This document shows, one piece after another, positions 2,702 through 19,600 of a stretch of DNA of 25,981 nucleotides; positions within the stretch are counted from its first letter, which is position 1; every line of letters starts with the position of its first letter. This stretch comes from a virus. The notes below the pieces were generated by a model, which saw only the letters and a program-made list of their open reading frames with translations, had not been told where the DNA came from and did not search any database. The stretch spans positions 1 through 25,981 of the IMG/VR virus record IMGVR_UViG_3300046167_000150; one strand, given 5' to 3'. A program made the position numbers and the translations under genes.

Positions 2702-3091
2702 TTAATCCAGCTCTCTAATCTTTTGTTTGTATCGTTCGATTGCTTCTTCATAGTCTATTCTGTTTAGTTTTACTATTGTCTTTGCTCTTTGTTCTAACTC
2801 CTCTGCTGTGCCATCTCCAAACCTATCGTCTAAGTATAAGCCGAACTTATATTGCTCTCCTTGTCTAAACATATTGCACTTAACGCATTGGACTTGTACG
2901 TTTACCTCATCCCAACGAGTAGAGTGGTGGCTTCTACTTTGAAAGTGTCCAGCTTGTTGTTCTTTCCAATGTTTCTCTACTCCACAAGTGAAGCACTTAA
3001 CTCTACCTAAGTGGTCTGCATTTCTACGTCTTATGTACTGACTAAACAATACATCTAGCTTTTTCTTTAGTTTACTTATTGTTGTTGGCAT
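2702..3091 (-). CDS. ninG: NinG/Rap-like recombination protein
   Basis: Member of the lambda NinG (Rap) family (PF05766), structure-specific nucleases that act on recombination intermediates and promote Red- or RecF-type exchange. Diagnostic features in the 129 residues: KKKLDVLFSQYIRRRNAD (9-26), zinc ligands CFTCG (33-37), AGHFQSRSHHSTRWDE (47-62) with the conserved His residues, then VQCVKCNMFRQGEQ (67-80) carrying the second Cys pair, and YKFGLYLDDRFG (81-92). Length is shorter than lambda NinG (about 200 aa), lacking extra N-terminal sequence, as seen in many Bacteroidota phages. It overlaps the 140-aa gene upstream by 20 bases. A 68-base stretch separates it from the next chosen start. 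Confidence 0.9.
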   Translation of the reverse strand: MPTTISKLKKKLDVLFSQYIRRRNADHLGRVKCFTCGVEKHWKEQQAGHFQSRSHHSTRWDEVNVQVQCVKCNMFRQGEQYKFGLYLDDRFGDGTAEELEQRAKTIVKLNRIDYEEAIERYKQKIRELD

Positions 3092-9806: not shown

Positions 9807-12133
9807 TATTTAACTTTTGGTGGTTTATTATTTATAATATTTTTATTTGTCAATACGTTTGCATTTTCAGCAGCGTGATTTGTAAAGTTGCCAACTAAAT
9901 GACTACCATCTTTATCTAAATCATTAAAGTCAATCTCTACCCATTCGCCCATAAAATAACCAGTAGTAGCTGTATATTCTCCACCTAGACAAACAAAATA
10001 TCTTTCAGAACCCTCTACAGTATCTTTTAATAAATATCCAAACTCCCAAGGGTCTAAGCTAAGAACATCAGTCTCTCTTACTAGCCTGGTGTCCATCTTC
10101 ATTCTATAATTCTTCTGCATTGCAATTAATGTAGATGCTTTTAAACTTGGTAAATGAACAGCAGACATACCAGTAGTATCATTAATGTATGTCCAGCTAG
10201 GTGTGAAAGCGTTCAAGTAATTGTTCTCTTGAAATGTATTAGAGTCTTTTATATAAATTAAATTGTCAGCTATCGAAGCATTAGGAAAGAATTGCTCTAC
10301 AAAATTAATTGAGTCAATAACTTCTTCTCCACTTTCTACTATAGTTCCAGCATCTTCATTAATATATTCATAAGCTACAAAGCTAGGAGTCTCCCCATCT
10401 ACATATATTTGACAAGATGCAACTGGTAAGTCTAAAGGAGAATCATAATTAGTATAGTTAGGGTGTGCTGTAGATGTTATATCTCCCTCTATTTGACTTG
10501 TTATATTAACTAATACAGAAGGAGCAGCATTACCATCAGCATCATATTGATAGGCATATACATAATAGTACTGTGTATAGGCATAATACTGAATAAGTCC
10601 ACTCACTGGACATACTGCCATATCATCACTCGTTGGCGCGCCATAACTAACCGTCTCGTAGTTACTATAGTTTTGACCGTTAATTAATGTAAACTCGCCT
10701 TGTGTAGTTACTGGAGCTTCTGTAGTATCCCAAGTATAAACATTATTCACTGGGTCAAATTTCAAATAATAGTCTTGAGTATCGTTTTTGATTCTTATAA
10801 TTAATAAAGTTCTAGCTGCAAAATCATTATACAAATCCCATTCAGAAGCATCAAAGGAATTAACTACATGTTCTGAGGATTGGTTAAATATAAAAGTCAT
10901 ATTTTGTCCAGTCTCTACAGCTAAGAATGTTTGTTTATATTCATTTGCTGCTGGTGTTGAATCTGTAGTTAATGTGTACTCTGTAAAAGTATGCCAAGCA
11001 CTTTGTAATTGATTGCCTGGAAAGTTGATTTGATTAGCTATACCTTGACCACCATCTAAATAAGTAAAGTCTAAAGGTGTTGCCTCACTTACTCCAGCTA
11101 TATTGTAAATCAATCTCTTAATAATTCTACTAAAATTGAATTTAGTTAATGACCTCTTGTTACTTTGTGAGCTTAAACTTTTTAAATAGTTTACCGTTCC
11201 ACTTGCAGCAGTACCACCTTTAGAATAATATCCGTATGTAGTAGCAGAGTCATCTTGCCATACTTCAAACGTTGATAATTGTACTATGTGAAATGCTCCC
11301 TCTTGTTGATGTATTCTAGCATTAAGATAAAAAAGTATTTTATTTAATACATCGTAGCAAGTCATATATTTTATAGCTCCTCCAGGTGTGCTTGGTCTTT
11401 GATAGAATGCGCTAGATTTACAGATAATAATATTAGAGCAATCATTATATCCTTGAGCTTCTGTGACATTCGTTTTGCTACTCCACCAATTACCAGCAAA
11501 TAGATATAAAAAGTCAGTTGCAACATTATCAGTGAATACCTCAGTGATAGGATTTTGGTTTAATATCCCTAAAATAATTGATTGAAAGGTATAGTATCCT
11601 CCTTCAAAATCTCCGTTACTATCAGCTACTTTTATAGTTGCATCAGTTTCATTAGTTCGCTCATTATAGATATTAGATATTTCATTGATTTGCTTAGATT
11701 TTAAAAGCTCTAATCCATCAATCGCTCTTAGCTTTATTATTTGAGGATAGTCTATATCTTCCATAATAGACTCATTCATGATAATTACACCAGTCCAAAA
11801 TCTACCTACTGGAGATACTGATTCAAAATCTACTTCAGTACCAGCATTATTCATATAGATTCTAGCTATATACTTACCCTCTTGTTGAGACATTATATCT
11901 AAGATTCTATTTCTGTCATCGTTATCTCTTAAAACAAACTCAAAGGTTATTTCTGATGAATGTATTGCAGTGTCTACTTTCTCTCCTCTTCCTTTATAAG
12001 ATAATTTAAAACCATCTCCACCTACATTGAACTCACTAATAGAGCCTACATAATTATCTTTCAATATATGTAACTCGTAATAGATGCCGTTGTCATCTTT
12101 AAACTTTGCTCTATTTGTAATTTCGTACGCCAT
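9806..12133 (-). CDS. Tail-tip / baseplate hub protein, 775 aa
   Basis: The first gene after the tape measure, the place of distal-tail/hub (Dit/Tal-like) proteins in siphoviruses. The N-terminal ~150 residues have a Dit-like strand pattern (ITNRAKFKDDNGIYYELHIL; SSEITFEFVLRDNDDR), leading to a region where IIKLRAIDGLELLK (about 131-144) resembles hub proteins of Bacteroidota phages. The remainder is beta-rich with many Tyr, Asn and Thr (YYYVYAYQYDADGN in the middle) and ends in a basic NNKPPKVK tail. No peptidase or lysozyme motif is visible. The gene contains an isolated GGCGCGCC site at 10635-10642. It shares single bases with both neighbours. Role as tail tip is inferred mainly from position and size. 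Confidence 0.7.
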   Translation of the reverse strand: MAYEITNRAKFKDDNGIYYELHILKDNYVGSISEFNVGGDGFKLSYKGRGEKVDTAIHSSEITFEFVLRDNDDRNRILDIMSQQEGKYIARIYMNNAGTEVDFESVSPVGRFWTGVIIMNESIMEDIDYPQIIKLRAIDGLELLKSKQINEISNIYNERTNETDATIKVADSNGDFEGGYYTFQSIILGILNQNPITEVFTDNVATDFLYLFAGNWWSSKTNVTEAQGYNDCSNIIICKSSAFYQRPSTPGGAIKYMTCYDVLNKILFYLNARIHQQEGAFHIVQLSTFEVWQDDSATTYGYYSKGGTAASGTVNYLKSLSSQSNKRSLTKFNFSRIIKRLIYNIAGVSEATPLDFTYLDGGQGIANQINFPGNQLQSAWHTFTEYTLTTDSTPAANEYKQTFLAVETGQNMTFIFNQSSEHVVNSFDASEWDLYNDFAARTLLIIRIKNDTQDYYLKFDPVNNVYTWDTTEAPVTTQGEFTLINGQNYSNYETVSYGAPTSDDMAVCPVSGLIQYYAYTQYYYVYAYQYDADGNAAPSVLVNITSQIEGDITSTAHPNYTNYDSPLDLPVASCQIYVDGETPSFVAYEYINEDAGTIVESGEEVIDSINFVEQFFPNASIADNLIYIKDSNTFQENNYLNAFTPSWTYINDTTGMSAVHLPSLKASTLIAMQKNYRMKMDTRLVRETDVLSLDPWEFGYLLKDTVEGSERYFVCLGGEYTATTGYFMGEWVEIDFNDLDKDGSHLVGNFTNHAAENANVLTNKNIINNKPPKVK

Positions 12134-14055
12134 TAATAACTATTTTTTCTTCGTGAGTATCTGTCGTTTGATAAGAATATATCCTCTCCACTTATCATTC
12201 CTTGTACTTGTACCGTTTGCCCTCCTATCATATCTTTTAACTTATTCAATGGAGCAATTACTTCTGGATTGGTATTAGCTCCAGCATACTCTCCCATAAG
12301 TCCTACAGTTGGTCCAGATACAATACCACCATCGGCAAAGGCTGGTAATGGTGTAGATGCAATTGTACCTATCTGAACAGCTCCTAAAGCTCCAGTAGCT
12401 ATTGCTAAAGGTAAATTCGGTAAGGATTTAACAACTGCTGCTGCTGTGTTTACAATAGCCTCAAATATGGCAACTGCTTTAGCACGTCTAGCTCTTTTCT
12501 TTTCTAACTCTGCTTTTTTCTTTTCGAACTTTTCGTCTGATTTTGCAATCATTTTATTTTTTTCTTCCTCAGAAATAGCCATTGCCATTATATTATCTAC
12601 CTCTGTTTTTCTTACTAACTCTAATTCTGTTAGTTGCTTTTGGTGCATTTGTGAGAATAGATTACTAACGCTTGCTATTACCGTAGAAACACTATTAAGT
12701 GTATTCATTAAAGTAGCAGTAAACTCTTCTCCAAATCTATTAAAAGCATCATTAAAGTTTTCAAGACCATCTGGCTCTATTGCTGCTACAGCTTCTAGTT
12801 TTTTAGGAATGTCTCCAAATCCTTTTTCTTGTGCTAGTGGTCCAACCTTTTTACCAGTTATAGTTGTTCTACTTGGTGGAGCTACTCCTCCTTGTTGTGT
12901 TTTATTAAGATTTTGTAGAGATGTATTTAATTTATCTACAGCATCTTTATTGGAGTCTATCTCTTTAGTTGAGTCTTTTAGCTTTTTTTCTTGCTCGTCT
13001 AATGATTCTCCAACCTCATCTATTACTGCAAAGTAAGCTTGATACTTAGGAGAGATTGCACTTAATGCTCCTAGCACTACTTTAGCTATGAACTTTCCAA
13101 CCTTACCCATCTGTAAAGCCGTTTTAATAAACTTCTCTGTGTCTAGTATAGCAAAGCCCATTATACCAACTAAAGCCGTTGCAGCAGCTCCAGCTAATCC
13201 AGTTGCTAAAGTTAATGTACCTAAAGCTTTGGCTAATGATGAAATAACAGTTACAATTTTACCTAATACAATCAAAGCTGGTCCAATCAATGCAGCGTAT
13301 TTAGCAAATTGTACTATGTTCTCTTTTTGTGCTGGTGTTAAGTTTCTTAGTCTTTCAGCTAATCCTTGCAATGACCTTTTTAATGGCTCTATATTATCAA
13401 GAATTAATTTACCAAACTCCTCAGAAACATCTCCAAGTTCATTCTTTAGTTGTGTAAATGGTCCTAATCCCTCTTTAGCTATTGCCTTAGCTTGTCCTTG
13501 AAATTTGCTAGTTAAAGTTTCAGTAAGTTTTACAGCTTTTTCTTGTGCTGTCATTGCTGGATTTAATCCAGTGTCAAAGTATCTTTTAAGAGCATCAGTA
13601 GAAGTTCCTATAGTTTTACCTACTAATGAAGCTGCTGTCGCTAAATCAACTTTCATACCAGTAGCAAAATCTTGCAAGGCTGGAGTAATCATTAAAATCT
13701 GATTCTCTGTTAATCCTAATTGAGATAATAAAGCTTGAGCCTCAATAGTAGCCTCATCGCCAAATAATGTTTCTTTTTGTAATTCTCTTGCTTGTTTAGC
13801 TAACCTTGCAAAAGCCTCTTCATTACCTTTAAGAGATGTTCTTAACTTAGTTTCAGCTTTTACTTGGTCATCAAAAGCCTTAACACTAGCTGCACCAAAA
13901 GCTAAAATAGGTAGAGTTAAATTACGACTTAAGTTCTGTCCAGTCTTTTGTAAGTTTTTACCAAACTTTTTCATAGACCTTGTAGCCTTTTTTAGACTAC
14001 TCTGAAATTGCTTATCGTTTAATGATAATTTTACGCTTAATGTTTTCTCAGCCAT
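12133..14055 (-). CDS. Tape measure protein, 640 aa
   Basis: Scaffold that sets tail length and enters the cell during DNA injection. N-terminal KLSLNDKQFQSSLKKATRSM (9-28) and the FGKNLQKTGQNLSRNLTLPI stretch (31-50) are typical of phage tail tape measures. The middle (about 255-330) has long hydrophobic segments rich in Ala, Gly, Leu and Ile (ALIGPALIVLGKIVTVISSL; GLAGAAATALVGIMGFAIL), compatible with membrane insertion. Coiled coils occupy about 350-390 and 465-530. A conserved C-terminal piece contains FADGGIVSGPTVGLMGEYAG (about 576-595), frequent in tape measures of Bacteroidota phages. At about 0.15 nm per residue the length predicts a tail near 95 nm. The gene overlaps the chaperone extension by eight bases. 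Confidence 0.93.
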   Translation of the reverse strand: MAEKTLSVKLSLNDKQFQSSLKKATRSMKKFGKNLQKTGQNLSRNLTLPILAFGAASVKAFDDQVKAETKLRTSLKGNEEAFARLAKQARELQKETLFGDEATIEAQALLSQLGLTENQILMITPALQDFATGMKVDLATAASLVGKTIGTSTDALKRYFDTGLNPAMTAQEKAVKLTETLTSKFQGQAKAIAKEGLGPFTQLKNELGDVSEEFGKLILDNIEPLKRSLQGLAERLRNLTPAQKENIVQFAKYAALIGPALIVLGKIVTVISSLAKALGTLTLATGLAGAAATALVGIMGFAILDTEKFIKTALQMGKVGKFIAKVVLGALSAISPKYQAYFAVIDEVGESLDEQEKKLKDSTKEIDSNKDAVDKLNTSLQNLNKTQQGGVAPPSRTTITGKKVGPLAQEKGFGDIPKKLEAVAAIEPDGLENFNDAFNRFGEEFTATLMNTLNSVSTVIASVSNLFSQMHQKQLTELELVRKTEVDNIMAMAISEEEKNKMIAKSDEKFEKKKAELEKKRARRAKAVAIFEAIVNTAAAVVKSLPNLPLAIATGALGAVQIGTIASTPLPAFADGGIVSGPTVGLMGEYAGANTNPEVIAPLNKLKDMIGGQTVQVQGMISGEDIFLSNDRYSRRKNSY

Positions 14056-14410
14056 TGTCTTTATTTAGCAATTCGTATTTCTTTTTAATATATTCTGCTC
14101 TTTTCTTTTGTTTCTTAATGTCGGTCTTAACTTTCTTTTTCTCCCAATCAAACTTCATCAGCTTTTGTGGTGTTAGGTTTTGCCCTTTCTTTGTATGTGG
14201 CTGTAAATTAACACAAGCCAACCATCGCACTCTCTCCCACTCCCATTGCTGCTCTTTCTCTACTCTATCATTGAAGCCTTTCTGCATACAGATAAACTCA
14301 TGAAAGGTTAGACTCCAAAAGTCTTTAGGTAGTAATCCGAAGCCATAACCAATAGCTTCTAAACTATCCCAAGTTACTTCTTTTTCTTCGCTCCTTTCGG
14401 AGCTTTCACG
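14048..14410 (-). CDS. Tail assembly chaperone, -1 frameshift extension
   Basis: This frame is reached by a -1 shift at GGGAAAC (14410-14416) in the preceding gene. It then reads without a stop for 120 codons to 14048. After a charged linker it contains TWDSLEAIGYGFGLLPKDFW (about residues 13-32 of the extension) and SLTFHEFICMQKGF, the typical T-domain of siphovirus chaperones, followed by EWERVRWLACV and a very basic end. The fusion would be about 224 aa. An ATG at 14287 exists inside the frame, but starting there would lose the conserved DFW...EF region, so I consider the frameshift product the real gene. In lambda the corresponding gpGT binds the tape measure and tail-tube subunits during tail assembly. 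Confidence 0.88.
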   Translation of the reverse strand, partial: RESSERSEEKEVTWDSLEAIGYGFGLLPKDFWSLTFHEFICMQKGFNDRVEKEQQWEWERVRWLACVNLQPHTKKGQNLTPQKLMKFDWEKKKVKTDIKKQKKRAEYIKKKYELLNKDNG

Positions 14411-14721
14411 TTTCCCTCTGTCTCAAATTTAGCAGAGAATTGATTAGAGAATATCTCTAGCACTTTATTTAGTGCCTCAAAATCTTCATCTAGCAAGTCA
14501 GCGACATCATCAACACTTAAAGAACATTCTTGTCCACTTACTCGTGAACCATCTTTTATTCCGTTTAGGATTAGATAACAAGCATCGTCTAAGCTCATAC
14601 CGTCTCCTAGCTTATCTAAGTCAGCTAAACTTCTTCCAGTATCTTTACAGAATAATCTCAATGAGTTCATTCCAAATCTTACTGGGTAATCTTTACCGTT
14701 TATTATTACAATTTCGTACAT
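14374..14721 (-). CDS. Tail assembly chaperone, zero-frame product
   Basis: The 115-aa G-like product of the chaperone pair. YEIVIINGKDYPVRFGMNSL (2-21) and LFCKDTGRSLADLDKL are the usual beginning; LILNGIKDGSR (about 51-61) and the acidic DDVADLLDEDFEALNKVLEI (about 71-90) follow. The protein ends in a basic GAKKKK, encoded in the hairpin and linker region downstream of the slip site. Most ribosomes should stop here and a minority shift into the extension. It lies between the major tail protein and the tape measure, the invariant position of this gene pair in long-tailed phages. Confidence 0.9.
   Translation of the reverse strand: MYEIVIINGKDYPVRFGMNSLRLFCKDTGRSLADLDKLGDGMSLDDACYLILNGIKDGSRVSGQECSLSVDDVADLLDEDFEALNKVLEIFSNQFSAKFETEGNVKAPKGAKKKK
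14390..14416 (-). promoter_or_regulatory. Programmed -1 frameshift signal (GGGAAAC + stem-loop)
   Basis: In the zero frame the heptamer reads G-GGA-AAC (14410-14416), a canonical X-XXY-YYZ slippery site. After a six-base spacer a perfect hairpin GCTCC-GAAA-GGAGC (14390-14403) with a stable GNRA tetraloop follows. The zero-frame stop lies 33 bases after the heptamer. All elements match the known architecture of -1 frameshifting in tail chaperone genes. Confidence 0.93.
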
Positions 14722-14793: not shown

Positions 14794-15231
14794 TTATGCT
14801 ATATCATTTTGAGTCAATGCTCCAGTTCCCTCTATCGAAACAGAGTAAGTTGGTGCATCTTCAGTTCCTCCAGAAACCTCTAGAGAAGTAATAAAGCCAG
14901 AGCCACTATAAGTATAGTCTCCAGTTGTCGTACTTGCTAAACCAAAAGTAAATGTTACAGCAGTTCTGCCAAACATTTGGTCAAATAACTCATCTACTTC
15001 TGTGTCAGTACCAGCAGAGTTGAAATCCATAAGACCATCAGCACTAAGGCTAAAAGACTTTTGACCACCTAGCAAATCTCTAAAACCACTAGAGTCTTTA
15101 TTTGAGATGTCTATTGTATCTACATTCATTGAAATTGAAACATTCTGAGAGTGCATCAACTTTTCTTCTGTGCCACCACTCGCTTGGTTTAGCACTTTTA
15201 GGATTAAATCCGTTCCATTAAAAATTGCCAT
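14794..15231 (-). CDS. Major tail (tube) protein, 145 aa
   Basis: Tail-tube subunit of the TP901-1-like type (Phage_tail_2, PF06199). It starts MAIFNGTDLILKVLN and carries QNVSISMNVDTIDISNKDSS (about 29-48), a hallmark of the family: strands followed by a T-I-D-x-S/T turn. FRDLLGGQKSFSLSADGL (about 50-67) forms the next strands; the C-terminal part GSGFITSLEVSGGTEDAPTY and SVSIEGTGAL completes the fold. It lies between the tail terminator and the chaperone genes as expected. A T-rich stretch and the hairpin at 14748-14779 separate it from the chaperone. Confidence 0.92.
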   Translation of the reverse strand: MAIFNGTDLILKVLNQASGGTEEKLMHSQNVSISMNVDTIDISNKDSSGFRDLLGGQKSFSLSADGLMDFNSAGTDTEVDELFDQMFGRTAVTFTFGLASTTTGDYTYSGSGFITSLEVSGGTEDAPTYSVSIEGTGALTQNDIA

Positions 15232-16321: not shown

Positions 16322-16530
16322 TATTGCTCTGGAAAAGGGTTAATACCGTTATCTATTAATATGTTTATCCAATCTATTTCCTTAGTGTATAAATCTACAT
16401 TGTCCCACTTAGTCTCTAAGCATTGATAAGTCTCTAGCACTCCATACGATACTATCGCATTACTATCGTTCCAAACGATGTAGTAACTCTTTACCTCTGG
16501 GTAACATATTTCTGTTAGTCTTAAACTCAT
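16321..16530 (-). CDS. Small hypothetical protein of the neck cluster, 69 aa
   Basis: An acidic 69-aa product with unusual Trp and Tyr content: YPEVKSYYIVWNDSNAIVSY (10-29), then GVLETYQCLETKWDN and EIDWINILIDNGINPFPEQ. It looks like a small beta domain. It sits between the LamG-like protein and the gp10-like protein with one-base overlaps on both sides (16321 and 16530), so its translation is probably coupled to the former. A chaperone or attachment factor for the LamG-like protein is one possibility, without direct evidence. Confidence 0.7.
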   Translation of the reverse strand: MSLRLTEICYPEVKSYYIVWNDSNAIVSYGVLETYQCLETKWDNVDLYTKEIDWINILIDNGINPFPEQ

Positions 16531-18194
16531 CAGCCAGTTAAATTATTTAGTTCGTCATCACTTAAAGCCTCATTAAATACTGCTAGTGCTTTGACTTTAC
16601 CTCTAAAGTAATTAGAATTTGAACCACTACCAAACTCTAAATTATCTAAACTAGAATAATCAAAAACAAAATTATTGAAAGCAGAGTTGGTTATTTGGCT
16701 ACCATTTACAAAAAGTTTATTTTGACCACTTTTATATAGTATAGCTATTTTATTGAATGCAGCAGTATCAACTCCTCCTTGTGATTGGTCTAAAGCAGTT
16801 AATACTGCTTGTGAAGGTGTTTCTGTTGTATCTTTTATTTGTACTAAAATATCGCCATCTACATTACAAAAAATTAAAACTCTATTATTAGTAGTTCCAT
16901 CACTTATAGCAATTTGATTACTTGATGCTTTATCATCTTCTGATAACATAGCTATCTCTGCATATAACACACCCTCTGTTGAGTTTATTAATTCAGCACT
17001 ACCAGCACCAGTTGCAGTCTCTGTAGCTCTTGTCTCTTGACTTCCAGTTAGTGTTGGTATGTACGATGTAGCGTAGGGTAGTTCTTCTAGTTGTGCGCCC
17101 CATAAAAAACATACATTTACTGCTGCGCTAGATTGATAACTAGGGTATCTACCTGAGTTTGTATTGTTAGTTGTTAAAACCTCATAAGTAGTAGTAACAC
17201 TTGCTGATGCAGTACAAGTTATAGAGCATCTATACCAACCATTTCCATAATCTATTATATCAGCAGTTGTAGAAGTGCCTTCATTTCCTACTACACCATT
17301 GTTTAAATCAAAATTAGCATAACTTTCAGCATCGAAAGCAGAAGTGGAAAACATTAATTGAAACCAATCGTTTTCATTTTTTTTTGCAAATATAGAATAG
17401 GTATAAGTATCTCCTGAAACAAAATTAAATAAATTATATAATCTGTGTCTTGTTGATGATGAATCTATACCAATAGAAAGAAGATTTGCTTCTATTGAAC
17501 CATTTGGAGAAATACCTTGATTTAATCCTATACTTAACGCTACTAATCCTGCCCACTGACTAAAATCCTCACTATAAGGAACAAGATTAGTAGAAGTAGG
17601 CTCTAACAATATATGACCATTATCTCCATTACTATCATAGCTTATTCTTGGAATGTTGTTGGTGTCTATTACTTCTTTGACTGATACGTTGTCTATTGAG
17701 CCTACAAATGAATTTCCTTGAAAGAAAATGTACCTTGTTGTATTACTTGCATCTGTTTGTAAATAAAATATATTTGAACCATTTGTAAAAGCAGTTGATG
17801 GTGTTGTATTTCCTAATCTAACTGTACCTCCTCCACTTGTTATACTTGCATCAAATGTTACTTTATAGGTTTTACCATCAACATAAGAAACAGATGTCTG
17901 ATAAAGTAAACCCGTACCATTTGAATTAGCAGACCCATTAGCAATAGTCCAATTTGTTTGTTTTTCCCAATCACTATCTGTATCAAAATCTCCGTTAGTA
18001 ACTAACTCACTACCAAGAGTTCTACCTACCATCTCGACTAAGCCACTAGAATTAACTCGACTAGCAACACTAGCTCTAGCAAAGTCAAAGTCCTCATAAG
18101 GCTCTACTACTGGTGCTACGTTGTAAAGCGTTCCAGCCTTGTAACCAGTAGGAGTTAAGATAATACTTGCTTTATTTAATAGTCCGTCTGCCAT
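16530..18194 (-). CDS. LamG/carbohydrate-binding-like virion protein, 554 aa
   Basis: A large Ser/Thr/Asn-rich protein inserted in the neck gene cluster. Residues about 36-60 (FARASVASRVNSSGLVEMVG) form a module common in phage surface proteins. Then follows a CBM_4_9-like jelly roll: ELVTNGDFDTDSDWEKQTNW (about 63-82) to FVGSIDNVSVKEV (about 163-175). A second, similar part starts near LLEPTSTNLVPYSEDFSQWA (about 196-215). The C-terminal ~150 residues look like a concanavalin/LamG fold (PF13385-like), with ILYKSGQNKLFVNGSQI, FRGKVKALAVFNEALSDDEL at the end. Jelly rolls of this type bind sugars. It should be displayed on the capsid or neck and could adhere to polysaccharide or host cells. It shares one base with the fusion gene upstream. 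Confidence 0.78.
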   Translation of the reverse strand: MADGLLNKASIILTPTGYKAGTLYNVAPVVEPYEDFDFARASVASRVNSSGLVEMVGRTLGSELVTNGDFDTDSDWEKQTNWTIANGSANSNGTGLLYQTSVSYVDGKTYKVTFDASITSGGGTVRLGNTTPSTAFTNGSNIFYLQTDASNTTRYIFFQGNSFVGSIDNVSVKEVIDTNNIPRISYDSNGDNGHILLEPTSTNLVPYSEDFSQWAGLVALSIGLNQGISPNGSIEANLLSIGIDSSSTRHRLYNLFNFVSGDTYTYSIFAKKNENDWFQLMFSTSAFDAESYANFDLNNGVVGNEGTSTTADIIDYGNGWYRCSITCTASASVTTTYEVLTTNNTNSGRYPSYQSSAAVNVCFLWGAQLEELPYATSYIPTLTGSQETRATETATGAGSAELINSTEGVLYAEIAMLSEDDKASSNQIAISDGTTNNRVLIFCNVDGDILVQIKDTTETPSQAVLTALDQSQGGVDTAAFNKIAILYKSGQNKLFVNGSQITNSAFNNFVFDYSSLDNLEFGSGSNSNYFRGKVKALAVFNEALSDDELNNLTG

Positions 18195-19600
18195 TAGCTT
18201 ATATCGTTTAAGTCTTGTAAGAATTGCTGACTAGCTGTAGTGTTCTCTACTACTCCTCCAGCAGCTACTACTCTTGTTGTTAGTATGCTTATGTAATCGG
18301 CTGGTGTTGGGTCAAATATACCACCATCAACAATAGTCCAACCATCGTCCTCTATTAAGCTAAATCGTGCAGCATAAGCTGACTCTGTAAATTGTGAGCC
18401 TCCGAAGTTTATACTAATATCGTTATCGTGTCCTCCAGATTGCCAAGCTATTAGCGTTGCATCGTAGTTAGAAGTGCTTAGACCACTAGCGTTCTGCATA
18501 AAGTTAGTAAAGTTAGAGACGTTACCTATATTCCACGCTGCTAAAGATTGGTCGAATAGGTCGCAGTTGTATAGCATAAAGCTCATATTTTCTACATTAG
18601 AAGTGTCCCAACTATATATGTCTCCGTTAAATTGGGTGGCTTCAAAGAATAAACCAAACATATTCTCACAATTTGATGTGTCCCAAGAGTTTAAGTCTTG
18701 GTCATAACTTGTGCAATTAGCAAACAAATAAGTCATATCAGTGATATTACTTACGTTCCAATTATCTAAAGACTTATTAAATGTTGAGCAATCTAAAAAG
18801 CATCTGTTAGTATTTGTTACTGTACTTATATCCCAATTACCAATCGCTCCATTAAAGTTAGTACAACCTCTAAACATATTTGAAAACGATGAACTAGAAA
18901 CAGTAGGAGCATCTGTAGCACTAGCATCTAAATTAGTACACCCTCTAAATGCAGCATAAGTAGATAAGTCTAAGACTCCCCATTGTTTTACGTCAAGCAT
19001 TTTAAGCCTATCTCCAGAAGCATTAAATTGCCAACCTTGTAATGTTCCCTCAATACTTATTTCGTATTGACCAGCACTACTATATGTGTGTGTAACCTCT
19101 GCTTGATTGTAACTTGTTATTGTATCGCTTGAGCCATCTCCCCAATTTACTGTAGCATTATAACTACCACTACTAACCAATGGCATCATAAACTGAGTGT
19201 TCAAGCTAGAGCCACTAGAAGTGTTCTCTGTGTCAATAGTAAATACAAATTGATTAGGAGCTGTTTGTGATAAGTCTACTACGTCATTCTTCTCTAATAG
19301 AAGCACCATAGCATCTTTACGACCTACTTGCTTTATGCTCTTGATAGAATAATTAGTAGAGCCATTAGAGATAAAGTACTGAGGAGAAACTCCAATGTTA
19401 GTTCTGTATCTTATTAAGCACTCTATACGCTCATCATTGATTAAGGCATCAGCATCGAAGTTAGTGTTGCCACCTTTGAAGTCAAAGTCTGCGTAGATGG
19501 TAACGTAACTATTATCAGATACTACTCTCTCGCCATAAGCGTTAGTAGAGTAAGTCTGTGTATATAGTTTTAACTTTCTATCTAGTTTGCCTATTATCAT
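18194..19600 (-). CDS. Head-closure protein fused to PKD-like and DUF285 repeats
   Basis: Residues 1-105 look like a head-tail joining protein (Phage_H_T_join, PF05521): KLDRKLKLYTQTYSTNAYGE (5-24), a DFDFKGG segment and DERIECLIRYRTNIG (56-70). Such proteins are normally about 110 aa. Here the frame continues: about 115-190 is PKD-like, with VNWGDGSSDTI (151-161) and VTHTYSSAGQYEISIEG (169-185). Residues about 195-385 hold at least five repeats of about 25 aa, each with the pattern W-D/N-x-S-N-V/I-x-x-M...F-x-x-C (e.g. NWNVSNITDMTYLFANC at 280-296). This is the DUF285/BspA-like type (PF03382) of leucine-rich-like surface repeats. The last ~40 residues (PADYISILTTRVVAAGGVVE) resemble small linkers before phage surface domains. 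The neck ring would thereby carry a projecting adhesin-like arm. Confidence 0.85.
   Translation of the reverse strand: MIIGKLDRKLKLYTQTYSTNAYGERVVSDNSYVTIYADFDFKGGNTNFDADALINDERIECLIRYRTNIGVSPQYFISNGSTNYSIKSIKQVGRKDAMVLLLEKNDVVDLSQTAPNQFVFTIDTENTSSGSSLNTQFMMPLVSSGSYNATVNWGDGSSDTITSYNQAEVTHTYSSAGQYEISIEGTLQGWQFNASGDRLKMLDVKQWGVLDLSTYAAFRGCTNLDASATDAPTVSSSSFSNMFRGCTNFNGAIGNWDISTVTNTNRCFLDCSTFNKSLDNWNVSNITDMTYLFANCTSYDQDLNSWDTSNCENMFGLFFEATQFNGDIYSWDTSNVENMSFMLYNCDLFDQSLAAWNIGNVSNFTNFMQNASGLSTSNYDATLIAWQSGGHDNDISINFGGSQFTESAYAARFSLIEDDGWTIVDGGIFDPTPADYISILTTRVVAAGGVVENTTASQQFLQDLNDIS

Follow-up and report, generated by a model that had tools for sequence, protein, structure and literature searches.

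A probable lambda G/GT-type −1 frameshift in the putative tail assembly chaperone gene of a marine phage clade

A pair of overlapping reading frames in a viral genome, here referred to as G and T, is almost certainly a programmed −1 frameshift of the lambda G/GT type, through which one gene would give rise to two tail assembly chaperones. The window, that is, the whole stretch of DNA that was analysed, is the single IMG/VR viral contig IMGVR_UViG_3300046167_000150, which is 25,981 bases long, has a GC content of 34%, and carries nearly all of its genes on the minus strand. The reading is based on a slippery heptamer that is conserved throughout the clade, a downstream stem with compensatory base changes, selection acting on the T frame ahead of its lone possible start codon, and the gene order tail tube – G/T – tape measure.

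Gene layout and family assignment

The features of the region, listed in the direction of transcription, are as follows:

14794 to 15231, minus strand: major tail (tube) protein, the upstream neighbour (Pfam Phage_tail_2, 1.5e-17; phrog_1407 major tail protein)
14374 to 14721, minus strand: gene G, the zero-frame ORF, putative tail assembly chaperone of 115 aa
14410 to 14416, minus strand: slippery heptamer G_GGA_AAC in zero-frame register, comprising the third base of E102 followed by G103 and N104
14404 to 14409, minus strand: spacer GUGAAA, 6 nt, a stem distance shared by every listed relative with G_GGA_AAC
14390 to 14403, minus strand: candidate stimulatory hairpin GCUCC-GAAA-GGAGC, from folding and base-pair covariation
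14048 to 14410, minus strand: T domain, 120 aa in the −1 frame, 41 of which a conventional start would miss
14285 to 14287, minus strand: the sole possible T start codon, ATG, at residue 42 of T and inside predicted helix 36 to 72
12133 to 14055, minus strand: tape measure protein, the downstream neighbour (phrog_1533 tape measure, 3e-28)

The tape measure ATG and the T stop overlap by 8 nt. The G-T fusion, computed from the −1 frame, which is open from 14410 to its stop at 14048, comprises 104 + 120 = 224 aa. The positions that the sequence-only reading had assigned to the G ORF, heptamer, spacer, hairpin, and T frame are all correct on the minus strand, and the two products that it proposed, of 115 and about 224 aa, agree with the lengths of the ORF and the −1 frame. 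Its remark that a gene caller would list an ORF from 14287 and lose the conserved beginning also holds: read from its conventional start, the T ORF (14287 to 14048) is 79 aa long and lacks the conserved W..LEA.GYG.GLLP.DFW.LTFHEF stretch.

In the proposed mechanism, most ribosomes would complete gene G and produce the 115-aa protein. A minority would pause at the GCUCC-GAAA-GGAGC hairpin with GGA in the P site and AAC in the A site, whereupon both tRNAs would re-pair one base back, G_GGA_AAC becoming GGG_AAA, and the ribosome would continue in the T frame to make the 224-aa G-T fusion (...FETEGN-RESSER...). The slippage itself, its efficiency, and the exact junction residue are inferred. By analogy with lambda, G would coat the tape measure protein, the tail tube protein would be recruited by the T part of G-T, and neither chaperone would be present in the virion.

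Gene order and weak family matches together support a putative function as tail assembly chaperones. G matches the phrog_2115 tail protein (E 2.9e-5), and the T part of the fusion matches phrog_16333 (E 1.1e-16). Pfam Phage_TAC_6 (PF09550) matches 21 of the 23 T-frame family members, with a best value of 3.6e-7; the window T itself scores 17.2 bits against this family (E 0.0072), under the curated cut-off of 23.4 bits. Among the members of the G family, Phage_TAC_12 is found in 8 of 23 and Phage_TAC_11 in 2 of 23 (distant G members). The window G matched no family in Pfam, neither G nor T matched in NCBIfam, and tblastn of G against named phages returned no match. When a structural model of G was compared with solved structures, the HK97 tail assembly chaperone (2ob9) ranked top, with a weak similarity (Z 5.0, rmsd 4.0 over 83 residues); PDB sequence searches and Foldseek with G and T gave nothing significant.

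Elsewhere in the window, two further genes were noted for their domains. The product of the gene at 18194 to 19600 (minus strand) joins a Phage_HCP head completion domain (residues 1 to 96) to a PKD domain and to DUF285 (BspA-like) repeats, and on the basis of this fusion the head-tail connector seems to be extended by an adhesin-like part. The gene at 16530 to 18194 (minus strand), located among the neck genes between those for head completion and tail completion, encodes a LamG/concanavalin A-like domain protein.

Slippery heptamer and downstream hairpin

Searches with G recovered GGGAAAC at the same position and in the same register in 80 of 80 loci, a count in which one of the six search peptides spans the heptamer codons at the protein level. 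Queries built from the T domain and from the tape measure are independent of the heptamer bases, and with these GGGAAAC was found in all 186 loci having the T motif. With more distant loci added, the window clade comprises 113 distinct 200-nt segments, of which 112 retain in-frame G_GGA_AAC; the lone exception (L347) has A_AAA_AAG instead. Moreover, the codons GAG-GGA-AAC show zero synonymous variation in 87 distinct G genes, all of which start with ATG and are open, while synonymous heterozygosity is 0.3 to 0.5 at seven of the other eight Gly codons in the same genes. The T frame places its own constraint on the final base of AAC, and the frozen-codon evidence therefore comes mainly from GAG and GGA.

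The pairing of heptamer and hairpin exceeds what chance would give. Among 259 heptamers of the form XXX-YYY-Z, counted on both strands and in any frame, this one alone is followed, at a spacing of 4 to 9, by a perfect stem of 5 bp that has four or more G/C; codon-shuffled copies of the strand contained 0.03 such heptamer-stem pairs on average. The 61-nt stretch folds at −10 kcal/mol (z −1.58). Because this raw stability is not exceptional, the case for the hairpin rests on its position and on covariation. In the relatives the position of the stem is fixed and its sequence varies: GCUCC pairs with GGAGC or GGGGC, GCCAC with GUGGC, GCCGC with GCGGC, and GGGAG with CUCCC. One further variant, GCCAC/GGGGC (3 loci), has one mismatch. 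In L347, a GGGAGC/GCUCCC stem is kept 5 nt past A_AAA_AAG. A search of Rfam matched no family. Stimulatory RNA elements past the shift site are frequent in frameshifts of the lambda type, although not every case has one.

The loops of the relatives range from 4 to 13 nt, and because of this variation a MAFFT alignment that included the loops misplaced the 3′ arms; covariation was for this reason counted on the arms only. In the arms-only alignment of 13 distinct versions, in which removal of the loops and choice of the 3′ arm as the best partner favor structure, both partners change in four of the five base pairs, 98.5% of cells are paired (matched by 0 of 500 shuffles), and the covariation score is 0.515 vs 0.121 in shuffles. 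Pairing falls to 38 to 58% when the stem partners are slid out of register. Despite the selection of the 3′ arm, the register of the stem and its four different complementary forms are evident on simple inspection. The sequence-only reading had named an alignment of related phages as one check of the programmed −1 frameshift that it proposed, and in the relatives compared both elements are conserved, the heptamer almost without exception and the stem with compensatory changes in four of five pairs.

Two other candidate elements were considered and rejected. G_AAA_AAG, a further slippery sequence close to the end of G, is missing from many relatives. A Shine-Dalgarno-like GGAGGG lies over the heptamer in many relatives (ACGGAGGGAAAC); as a stimulator it was set aside, as it is missing in the window (ACAGAGGG) and overlaps the shift site rather than sitting 10 to 14 nt upstream.

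Coding in the T frame and alternative explanations

Between the G stop and the ATG at 14287, T is the sole frame that can code. From the conserved Trp to this ATG, pN/pS is 0.225 in the T frame vs 0.80 and 1.68 in the other two; these ratios show purifying selection on T ahead of its lone possible start codon. The conserved T core begins 28 codons before this ATG. Of the 89 distinct T sequences, 34 have no ATG, GTG, or TTG ahead of the conserved WERVRW, and because no start codon precedes the core, independent initiation of T is excluded in these relatives. The earlier suggestion that the −1 frame restores the conserved T domain of the chaperone is borne out by the start-codon, selection, and helix data, which indicate that T can be complete only via the shift.

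These observations bear directly on the view that T is a separate gene, expressed from the ATG at 14287 by reinitiation or internal entry, with an overlap that reflects mere compact packing. The window does contain that ATG and a 79-aa ORF after it, and phrog_16333 still matches the short form. However, such a start would leave out a conserved core that is under purifying selection; the ATG falls in the middle of a helix (residues 36 to 72 of T) that is confidently predicted in the structure model; it is replaced by a Thr or Ile codon in many relatives; and the hairpin is conserved by compensation. We consider a separate T gene very improbable in the window, and, judged by the codons present, it is already refuted for the relatives that have no start codon before WERVRW. 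An equally low probability is given to transcriptional slippage, in which RNA polymerase stuttering on a homopolymer, rather than ribosomal slippage, would provide access to the T frame. Distant relatives with runs of A7 to A9 at the junction are where polymerase slippage could contribute; in the window overlap, however, the longest run is A5, GGGAAAC is not a homopolymer, and a covarying RNA stem at a fixed spacing of 6 nt fits a stimulator that acts on the ribosome.

Least probable of all is that a sequencing or assembly error, or gene decay, split one chaperone gene into two frames. One contig alone would be insufficient to exclude this, but the same split occurs at the same codon in more than 100 distinct segments, which come from numerous metagenomes assembled independently, by which the explanation is already refuted. 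Ribosomal −1 slippage at G_GGA_AAC is thus the reading that we retain.

Distant relatives, known systems, and the host

The G/−1/T arrangement recurs at A_AAA_AAR in distant relatives, which include Cellulophaga phage phi39:1 and two contigs, one from Bacteroidales and one from Pirellulaceae; a heptamer of this type is present in 40 of 41 distinct distant segments. Used as a single protein, T matched none of the genome contigs; used as an alignment, it gave three distant matches, two with A_AAA_AAA and one ended by the contig end. In one distant relative (L271) the overlap has no X_XXY_YYZ heptamer in register, and this locus may rely on a different site, or it may be damaged. Runs of A7 to A9 appear as shift sites in L216, L111, L114 and relatives, and at positions 3090 to 3110 of L133. 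No strong downstream stem was found for the distant chaperones with A7 to A9 runs, and transcriptional slippage could contribute at these sites.

In phage phi39:1, gp19 and gp20 (L133, 2744 to 3470) resemble a G/T frameshift pair at A_AAA_AAA. They share with the window the G/−1/T organisation before a related tape measure, and their T-domain motif can be aligned; they differ in the shift site, which is A_AAA_AAA and not G_GGA_AAC. The two are deposited as separate hypothetical proteins with no fusion annotated, and they are absent from the MS/MS-annotated structural proteins of this phage.

The lambda G/GT frameshift and its wide conservation are established (PMC5009743), and the window resembles lambda in that the pair lies between the tail tube and tape measure genes and the −1 shift is predicted close to the end of G. 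As in lambda, a small G would be accompanied by a G-T fusion, at a heptamer of the G_GGA_AA- type. The lambda heptamer ends in G, whereas that of the window ends in C. Further differences are that the window T belongs to another family (Phage_TAC_6-like/phrog_16333) and that the window clade keeps a compact covarying hairpin 6 nt downstream. G_GGA_AAC itself has been predicted earlier in tail chaperone genes of Burkholderia phage KL1, with a predicted downstream stem-loop (PMC3483164), Caulobacter phage Colossus (PMC3556154), and the haloarchaeal virus HCTV-1 (PMC5009743). These are single-genome predictions from other hosts, in contrast to the present comparison of site and stem across a large clade. 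The sequence-only reading had called the signal unusually complete; its completeness stands, but the emphasis on unusualness is only modestly justified, because other phages are already on record with this heptamer, in some cases together with a predicted stem-loop. For the window clade, no description of G_GGA_AAC was found in the literature searched, in which coverage of subscription journals is limited. The G/T pair is an unusually well-supported new example of a known mechanism.

A Shine-Dalgarno motif is found at 0 of the 31 gene starts in the window, where the leaders are A-rich, and the tape measure matches that of Cellulophaga phage phi39:1, among others. Both observations make a Bacteroidota host plausible; they are consistent with the earlier presumption of a Bacteroidota phage and fall short of proving it. 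The assignment is held at this strength because no close prophage of the window was found among genome contigs, with T either as a single protein or as an alignment. In Bacteroidota, Shine-Dalgarno recognition is largely off, and Flavobacterium ribosomes barely use the Shine-Dalgarno sequence yet retain the prfB +1 frameshift (PMC8710568). If the host does belong to the Bacteroidota, the G/T site would be a ready test of hairpin-driven stimulation.

With this large marine phage clade, a stem 6 nt past a slippery site gains clean support from covariation; such an element is usually just predicted from single genomes. Gene callers would trim T by 41 residues, and the phi39:1 pair was deposited as two unconnected genes; the annotation of these phages therefore misses the fusion protein. 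Tentatively, and with rather less confidence than in the frameshift itself, we suggest that tail-chaperone frameshifting in this clade might depend on the hairpin, without an upstream Shine-Dalgarno stimulator where host ribosomes ignore it, and that the clade might swap whole heptamers (G_GGA_AAC/A_AAA_AAG) and stems at a spacing of 5 to 6 nt. If true, these phages would provide a natural series for the trade-off between heptamer and stem strength at a constant product ratio.
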